Below are positions 24,849 through 26,845 of a stretch of 64,000 nt of DNA, one piece after another. The stretch is from Thermoanaerobaculia bacterium. GTDB lineage: Bacteria; Acidobacteriota; Thermoanaerobaculia; Multivoradales; J023. Location of the stretch: NCBI GenBank assembly GCA_030431255.1, contig JAUIJL010000015.1:62001-126000 (forward strand), given 5' to 3'. How positions within the stretch are numbered: the first letter of the stretch is position 1; each line of letters opens with the position of its first letter. The position numbers and the translations under genes were made by a program. Under the pieces are notes generated by a model. That model did no database searches. It saw only the letters and a program-made list of their open reading frames with translations, and was not told the origin of the DNA.

Positions 24849-26000
24849 CTACAGCCCGTAGCGATAACCGGTGCGAGCACGTACCTCGATTTCCTGATCC
24901 GTGGTGGTGACCGTCAGATTCTGATAGCCGATTTCTCCAGAGGGCCTTTCGGAGCGATAAGTGAGCAGGTAATACCCGTGGTTTTCGCCGGCGATCGCCT
25001 CAAAGGGTTGGAAGAAGCCGGTGAAGTTGGGGTCAAATCGTCCGCCGGTATCGTCCGCCAGCTTTTGCAGGAAATCTTCCTGGGGAGGCGGCGAGCCGGG
25101 CGGAGTGAGGTCGATGGGATAGACCGCCACATTGTGATCGTTGAGCACCGGTTCCAGCTGAGGGTAGTAGCGGGGATCGGGAATCGAGGCGCGCCCACCG
25201 GCTTTCTCCACCCCGAAACCGAGGGTGTAAAGCAGCATGACCTTGCGGCCCACCAAGAATCCTGTGGTCTCGGCGACCCGCTGGATTCCCTCGTAGACAT
25301 TGGATACCGAATCTTCCAGCTCTCGGCCGACCGGCAGTCGGCTCAGGATGCCAAGCTCGCGGCCACGGCCCAAAGCTTCTCGGCGTCCGGGTCGGAATTG
25401 ATCCGGCTTCTTGCCCGTCGCGACCCGCTCCAAGGCGGCTGACAAGACCTCGGGATCCTGGGTGAAGTCTTGATGCACTCGAAGCTCGACGTCGTAGCTG
25501 ACGATCGCGACCCAATCCGAGGGCTCCATGGCTTCTTGGATCCACCTCCGAGCATCGCGAGCTGCCCGGAGCTGCTGGCGCATGAGCCGATTGTTGAATA
25601 GGCCGAAGCGGGTTTGGTCGTGAAAAAAGAGAATGAAGTAGCGGCTGGACGGGACTTCTTCCGCCTCGGTCGCTGTCGCGCCGGCGAATTCGGCGCCGTA
25701 GCGGGTGGTGTAGTAGCTGACGCTGGTGAGCTCGACCGGCTCGCCGTCCTCCTCGACCACGAAATCGTCGATTCCCAAGCCGCGGGCCACCTCACCTTCG
25801 CGCAGAGCCAGCACGTCGAGGAAGACCTCCGAGACCTCGACCAGATCCTCAAAAGTCTGTAGGCCCTGGGCCGGTGCTTGCGGCTGCGCGGTATCTGCCG
25901 ATTCCTGGGCACGGGCCACCGAGAAGGGAGAGAGCAACGCCATCAGCAATACCATCGGCGATGCAATGCAAAGGCTCAAATACCGGGTCTTGTCGAGCAC
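24849..26000 (-). CDS. Exported VWFA-related domain protein (acidobacterial type)
   Basis: This 383-residue protein has a signal peptide (LSLCIASPMVLLMALLSPFS) and a short Gln/Ala/Pro linker. It then has EVFLDVLALREGEVARGL-type sequence and a von Willebrand A-like fold (YFILFFHDQTRF, DWVAIVSYDVELRVHQDF, VMLLYTLGFGVE), closing with RSERPSGEIGYQNLTV and VRARTGYRYG. This matches the VWFA-related family common in Acidobacteriota, with no known function. The MIDAS Ser residues look replaced (HDQTR), so metal binding is doubtful. The start is a GTG with an excellent AAGGAGG five bases upstream. A longer in-frame extension reaching 26264 is not supported. Confidence 0.9.
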   Translation of the reverse strand: MLDKTRYLSLCIASPMVLLMALLSPFSVARAQESADTAQPQAPAQGLQTFEDLVEVSEVFLDVLALREGEVARGLGIDDFVVEEDGEPVELTSVSYYTTRYGAEFAGATATEAEEVPSSRYFILFFHDQTRFGLFNNRLMRQQLRAARDARRWIQEAMEPSDWVAIVSYDVELRVHQDFTQDPEVLSAALERVATGKKPDQFRPGRREALGRGRELGILSRLPVGRELEDSVSNVYEGIQRVAETTGFLVGRKVMLLYTLGFGVEKAGGRASIPDPRYYPQLEPVLNDHNVAVYPIDLTPPGSPPPQEDFLQKLADDTGGRFDPNFTGFFQPFEAIAGENHGYYLLTYRSERPSGEIGYQNLTVTTTDQEIEVRARTGYRYGL

Positions 26001-26045: not shown

Positions 26046-26217
26046 AAAAGAGAGGGTGAGGACTTGCGATTCTGAGATGATGCCAGAGAACGGCTCAGGA
26101 AGCGAAGGACGCCCTGGTTGAGATCTTTGCGAATTTCCGCAGAGTGGGAGGCAAAGTCTGTAAACACAGGATTTAGGGGGGAGAATCGGCGTGCTTATTT
26201 GTCCCTGTCTATGGACC

Positions 26218-26398
26218 TGTGGAAAAAGGTGGGCGATTTCGTGCAAAAAGGGGGAGGGGATCACAGTGAAAGATCTCTAAATGTTGATATAATTGATCTT
26301 ATGTATGATGCACAAAAACATGTGCAAATCGTCGGAAGTTGCGATGTTTGTTGACCTATCGGGTGTTTTCCTGGGATTTTTCCACAGGCTTTTTCACA
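26218..26398. other. Candidate replication-origin-like element: DnaA-box matches flanking an AT-rich tract
   Basis: Three exact matches to TTWTNCACA are present: TTTTCCACA on the minus strand at 26218-26226, TTTTCCACA at 26378-26386 and TTTTTCACA at 26390-26398. Single-mismatch versions occur at 26306-26314 (TGATGCACA) and, on the minus strand, 26321-26329 (ATTTGCACA). Between them, 26270-26320 is about three-quarters A+T by my count, in a GC-rich region. The layout resembles a bacterial origin with an unwinding element. Against it, dnaA, dnaN, gyrB, parAB and rpmH are not nearby, and gene direction gives only weak support. Confidence 0.35.
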
Positions 26399-26443
26399 GT
26401 TCCTGCGGAAGACCGAAAGAGCCGCCAACGAACGGGGTTTGTG

Positions 26444-26845
26444 ATGAAAATTTGCCTGAAACGCGCCTACGAAGAACCCTCCGGGCAGGACGGTTATCGG
26501 GTCTTGACCGAACGTCTGTGGCCTCGCGGCGTGTCGAAAGATCGGGCTCGGATCGATCAGTGGGCGAAGGAGTGGGCGCCCTCCACCGAGCTGCGAAAGT
26601 GGTACGGGCACGAAGCCGACAAATGGCCCGAGTTTCAGCTTCGATACCGTCGCGAGCTCTCGGCTCGGGCGACGGAGCTCAAGACCTGGGCCAAGGAGCT
26701 CGAGGGCTACAGAGCTGTGACGTTCGTATTCGGCTCGAAGGGTAAGCTCATCAGCTCGGAGATCCTCCGTCAGGTGATCTATGAGCTGCTGGACCGGCCA
26801 CACTTAGATTCGGGAGGCTCAACGGAAAACATCGGGTTAGAATAG
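26444..26845 (+). CDS. DUF488-family protein (YeaO-like)
   Basis: This 133-residue cytoplasmic protein matches the DUF488/YeaO family: ICLKRAYEEPSGQDGYRVL, ERLWPRGVSK, WAKEWAPSTELRKWYGHE and AVTFVFGSKG. Typical members are about 115-120 residues, so this one has a slightly longer C-terminus (HLDSGGSTENIGLE). The function of the family is unknown. The ATG at 26444 directly aligns with the family start; a longer in-frame extension from 26339 reads through the DnaA-like boxes and is unlikely. Confidence 0.88.
   Translation: MKICLKRAYEEPSGQDGYRVLTERLWPRGVSKDRARIDQWAKEWAPSTELRKWYGHEADKWPEFQLRYRRELSARATELKTWAKELEGYRAVTFVFGSKGKLISSEILRQVIYELLDRPHLDSGGSTENIGLE

Follow-up and report, generated by a model that had tools for sequence, protein, structure and literature searches.

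The window examined here, a stretch of 64,000 nucleotides, corresponds to C40:62001-126000 in the 10.19-Mb draft genome (G000) of a Thermoanaerobaculia bacterium; contig C40 is 224 kb long. Between two divergently oriented genes, one for an Acidobacterial VWA-domain protein (GTG start with AAGGAGG) and one for a DUF488 protein, the window contains a cluster of DnaA-type boxes (Table 1). An earlier note on this DNA had correctly described the divergent neighbours and the three exact TTWTNCACA matches. It counted two one-mismatch boxes, where three are present, and its value of about 75% A+T applies to the centre (71-77% over the central 30-55 bp), the full 181 bp having 58.6% and the window 37.9%. 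The 12-bp inverted repeat spanning the outer boxes had been missed.

Table 1. Features of the DnaA-box locus (positions in the window)
Feature	Position	Strand	Remark
Left neighbour, Acidobacterial VWA-domain protein	24849-26000	-	TIGR03436, E 8e-32; context only
Second, weaker TAA..CTTT palindrome-like motif	26152-26176	-	Outside the distal box; many relatives have a similar motif there
Whole conserved element, as defined by the profile	26215-26410	-	Minus-strand reading puts the core first
12-bp perfect inverted repeat, CCTGTGGAAAAA / TTTTTCCACAGG	26216-26227 and 26377-26388		Arms 149 bp apart
Distal box TTTTCCACA, exact TTWTNCACA	26218-26226	-	Invariant in alignment A1
One-mismatch box	26240-26248	-	Between exact boxes
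AT-rich imperfect palindrome ATAAGATCAATTATATCAACATTTAG	26277-26302	-	Sits where other copies have the IHF-type consensus
Inverted pair of TTTGCACA-type boxes, TGATGCACA (+) / ATTTGCACA (-)	26306-26329		Conserved as TTTGMACA-n5-TTGTGCA in alignment A1
One-mismatch box	26306-26314	+	Between exact boxes
One-mismatch box	26321-26329	-	Between exact boxes
Core box III, TTTTCCACA, exact TTWTNCACA	26378-26386	+	Strongly conserved in alignment A1
Core box II, TTTTTCACA, exact TTWTNCACA	26390-26398	+	3-nt gap to box III
Core box I, TCTTCCGCA, two mismatches to TTWTNCACA	26404-26412	-	Missed in the earlier note
Right neighbour, DUF488 protein	26444-26845	+	PF22752/PF04343; context only

The cluster is genuine and well outside what chance would give. 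Five exact TTWTNCACA sites occur in the whole window, against a mean of 1.13 in shuffled sequences. None of 5000 dinucleotide-preserving shuffles of the 181-bp segment reached three exact boxes (mean 0.045), and no 181-bp stretch contained more than one exact box in 200 shuffled versions of the window. Box I lies 14 bp before the start of box II (5-nt gap), in the opposite orientation.

Although the arrangement of DnaA-type boxes and AT-rich centre is origin-like, as the earlier note had proposed, the locus is not the replication origin. On C40, each 10-kb step as far as 220 kb has a positive GC skew; the sign is the same on both sides of the element and does not change at 88.2 kb. The minus-to-plus switch of G000, the skew minimum, is found on C53 at ~323-326 kb, inside the gyrB-recF-dnaN-mutY-dnaA cluster; the usual origin genes are absent beside the element, as had been pointed out. 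Within that cluster, the dnaN-mutY stretch (C53:323059-323400; L004 5060-5400) has its own DnaA-box cluster and a DnaA-trio-like TAGTAAGAATAGTAG tract, and is likely the true oriC of G000. This region and the element have DnaA boxes and an AT-rich tract in common, but only the former is located at dnaN-mutY-dnaA and the skew minimum and contains the TAGTAAGAATAGTAG tract; the element profile gave no match in the oriC region at E<=1.

The relatives gave the same picture. In the single-contig genome G047, dnaA (2.72-2.73 Mb) marks the skew minimum, and the element copy, at 4.477 Mb, lies at about three quarters of the distance from there to the terminus. In another single-contig genome, G289, the copy is at 3.06 Mb, well away from the skew switch near 2.2 Mb. 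The skew has the same sign on both sides of 42 of the 44 copies examined, which lie well inside a replichore, and is near zero on one or both sides of the remaining two. No skew minimum was found at the element on C40, in G047, in G289 or among the 44 copies, and origin genes were not found next to it. The box cluster, the AT-rich centre, the IHF-type site (see below) and the near universality of the element in relatives would suit an origin, but the skew data and the separate oriC-like region between dnaN and mutY contradict this. As the main origin the element is already refuted, and the origin reading as a whole, a second or former origin included, is highly improbable.

Three further replication-related roles were rejected. 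Copies of the element are not at the plus-to-minus skew switch, as a terminus or dif site would be. Copies of a locus family all point the same way, but families differ in this, which gives no support to a fork trap or an element polar to the fork. A plasmid or phage origin is at odds with the chromosomal context of the window element; viral contigs scanned with the box pattern gave no match. Two short contigs of G000, C21 (L001) and C46 (L002), look like plasmid replicons, with replication-protein-like ORFs, TTTTCCACA clusters and repeats, those of C46 being iteron-like (TTTAGACCCTGGAAATACGAA).

Conservation of the boxes, which the earlier note had suggested examining in related genomes, was evident. 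The pattern TGTGGAAA-N138-168-TTTCCACA matched in 37 of 99 relative genomes, whereas the reversed pattern matched in one genome only, probably at a repeat. In an alignment of 36 oriented copies (A1) the box letters are conserved at fixed places over ~200 bp, in the order TCCACAG-n3-CTGTGGAAAA-n2-CTGTGGAAAA; TTTGMACA-n5-TTGTGCA; TAAGT and an AT-rich stretch ending in TTA; TTTTCCACAG. A sequence-only profile of the element (R1) found 146 of 148 relatives, with one to five copies in each; the copies are related by descent, and their counts are not independent. The window copy, itself one of the 36 training sequences, scored 85.7 bits (nhmmer) and was recovered in the genome search at G000:C40:88216-88410 with an E-value of 1e-21.

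Across the Acidobacteriota, with other classes included, R1 matched 142 of 297 genomes at E<=1e-4, some of the 297 having supplied training copies. A pattern scan of named genomes returned mainly Thermoanaerobaculia and Holophagae records, plus Acanthopleuribacter pedis and one Aminicenantes genome. The E-values of R1 are rough and matches near 26.5 bits only suggestive: one of six out-group genomes reached this score (Cycloclasticus, G412:C4:119523-119702, E 5.7e-6), so weak matches are unsafe when taken singly. The Cycloclasticus match, in a gamma-proteobacterium, may mark the DARS or oriC of that genome or be due to chance.

The genes beside the element, whose names were read from the sequences without a family search, vary from copy to copy (gcvT, phoBR-like, ppx, rdgB, ALDH and others). 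Some element positions are old, with a gcvT / phoBR-like neighbourhood that recurs in several families and rdgB that recurs in family f1. A second, more degenerate copy in G000 (C35:569781-569967; L003 7784-7966) lies between GalE-like epimerase and rdgB-like genes, the latter also present next to copies in further f1 genomes. Tandem copies, ~340-490 bp apart, were seen at G005:C334:11844-12503, G090:C6:113531-114031 and G096:C19:3870-4375. Most copies have, besides the core, an IHF-type site, the inverted TTTGMACA pair and the distal box. In family f4 (e.g. L173, L175) the boxes read TTTTCCGCA and a GC-rich palindrome, GCACCGGATCCGGTGC, replaces the TTTGMACA pair, while the TAAGT palindromes remain. 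That these copies represent a conserved, extra-origin DnaA-box element is, in our judgement, very likely.

The protein that binds the boxes would be DnaA, a view supported by the parallel change of box spelling before dnaA and in the element. Throughout the class, pairs of TTTTCCACA immediately precede dnaA; in f4 the variant TTTTCCGCA occurs at this place as well as in the element. The DnaA recognition helices recovered, a set that does not include those of G000, G002 and G003, all read KHHSTV, and no change matching the f4 box variant was found among them. Hda was not found; the second DnaA-domain match, considered as support for a DnaA-ADP cycle, proved to be IstB.

The published consensus of IHF sites is TAAnnnnTTGATW (PMC8682772). 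A looser form, YAANNNNYTGWW or its mirror WWCARNNNNTTR, is present in either orientation at the element centre in 25 of 36 copies, whereas 1 of the 72 segments taken as background matched and shuffled sequences averaged 1.0 of 36; this consensus was noticed after the alignment had been seen, and the 36 copies are related. In most copies the IHF-type consensus is ~111 bp from box I, and the window copy has no strict match. G000 encodes an IHF-beta equivalog (above the cut-off) and four further HU/IHF-family proteins. A genome-wide search with the motif TAAGTnnnTGAAAACAAnnnACTTA detected nine sites in G000 within three mismatches and none in reversed controls. Examples are G000:C14:115731-115755 and G012:C26:28241-28265, and a site in G012 precedes a gene resembling that of ribosomal protein L27. 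The motif may be an IHF-type or regulator site used genome-wide.

With boxes II and III of the core fixed, third boxes were scored in the 36 copies at gaps of 0-19 nt and in both orientations. Only one position was well supported, that with a 5-nt gap and opposite orientation (mean 2.4 mismatches, two or fewer in 24 of 36 copies); all other combinations had mean values of at least 4.3. In E. coli MG1655 the boxes of DARS1 (2108+, 2122-, 2134- in L294) and DARS2 (2136+, 2150-, 2162- in L296) follow each other in steps of 14 and 12 bp. The element core has the same gaps, 5 and 3 nt, and the same opposition of box I to boxes II and III. If gaps and orientations are taken as free, such a match is expected by chance about once in 1600 cases (2 x 20 choices, twice), a rough figure as the spacings of DnaA boxes are not uniform. 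The literature describes the same box spacing for both DARS loci and a box I that runs against boxes II and III (PMC5742627), and boxes I and II serve for the head-to-head contact of ADP-DnaA (PMC8682772).

Like DARS1 and DARS2, the element is a non-coding site located between oriC and the terminus, inside a replichore and away from oriC, and in some genomes it is present at more than one locus. In most copies the loosely matched IHF-type consensus may correspond to the IHF site that DARS2 has beyond its core. It differs from the E. coli sites in the box spelling (TTTTCCACA), in the extra inverted TTTGMACA pair and fixed distal box, and in belonging to a different phylum. Fis is part of the E. 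coli DARS2 machinery. Both the DARS2 core and Fis are reported to be confined to gamma-proteobacteria related to E. coli, the core being conserved specifically in this group (PMC4245941). Profile similarity was not seen: R1 scored at most 1.8 bits with E. coli DARS1 and DARS2 and at most 2.1 bits when datA is included. Because the profile misses the E. coli sites, the tie to DARS is one of geometry, not of sequence homology. We call the element DARS-like rather than a member of the DARS family, since sequence similarity was not found and the activity is a predicted one.

On the basis of this geometry, we think it somewhat probable that the element is an extra-origin DnaA-regulating locus of the Acidobacteriota, of the DARS type rather than of the datA or titrating type; in the window copy, box I has two mismatches and the IHF consensus is not strict, which limits such a reading there. 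A site of the datA or titration type would restrain initiation, either by gathering ATP-DnaA with an IHF-like protein and promoting ATP hydrolysis, or by soaking up DnaA. Such a role fits most of the same facts: minimal datA consists of DnaA boxes 2, 3 and 7 and one IHF site (PMC5742627), and in most copies of the element DnaA boxes likewise flank an IHF-type site outside oriC. However, a three-box core with box I opposed and gaps of 5 and 3 nt is the signature of DARS, and in our scan the E. coli datA boxes (2678+, 2745+, 2907+, 2919-) had no such core and a different order. We therefore regard the datA or titration role as rather unlikely. The DnaA-box clusters of B. subtilis and Streptomyces are also extra-origin, but no shared core geometry is reported for them in the literature consulted.

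The earlier note had offered, as a fallback, a DnaA-regulated promoter region. Such a divergent promoter would serve the VWA-domain gene, the DUF488 gene or both, and the element does lie between divergent genes; inverted boxes are also found in front of dnaA. The gaps of the dnaA-promoter boxes are different, however (3 and 2 nt), and the anatomy of the element is kept while its neighbours change, which makes the promoter improbable.

Nested inverted repeats and near single-copy universality had suggested a structured RNA such as 6S, but RNAalifold gave -0.59 kcal/mol, with no compensatory pair and no RNA covariation, and an Rfam search found no match; the element therefore acts as DNA. An RNA gene or a small MITE-like mobile element, to which the TTTTCCACAG terminal inverted repeats and the one to five, sometimes tandem, copies per genome could point, is very improbable given these results, the conserved boxes and motifs outside the repeats and the position kept beside gcvT or phoBR-like genes across several families. 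Target-site duplications and near-identical copies within one genome, either of which would favour a mobile element, did not come to notice among the copies examined.

A DARS-like element could work as follows. ADP-DnaA would bind boxes I and II head to head, with box III occupied beside them. An IHF-family protein would bend the AT-rich centre, so that the distal box and the TTTGMACA pair come close to the core. Contact between DnaA molecules would then cause release of ADP, and the freed DnaA could take up ATP and become competent to start replication at oriC.

In E. coli, three non-coding sites (datA, DARS1 and DARS2) help to determine when the chromosome is replicated. To our knowledge, DARS-type sites have so far been described only in proteobacteria. 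B. subtilis has been reported to lack datA and DARS loci (PMC13220808), and a literature search for work on origins or DARS in Acidobacteriota found none. For origin prediction in this phylum, the present case means that clustering of DnaA boxes alone can mislead. We tentatively propose a phylum-wide DARS system in Acidobacteriota, made up of DnaA-recharging non-coding loci that would combine the E. coli core geometry with a different body. With the exact DARS core geometry present in a nearly universal element of a distant phylum, the reach of this kind of control can be tested directly, and dozens of natural variants are at hand for relating structure to function. If the proposal is true, reactivation of DnaA by DNA is either ancient or arose twice with the same geometry, and is not a proteobacterial speciality.
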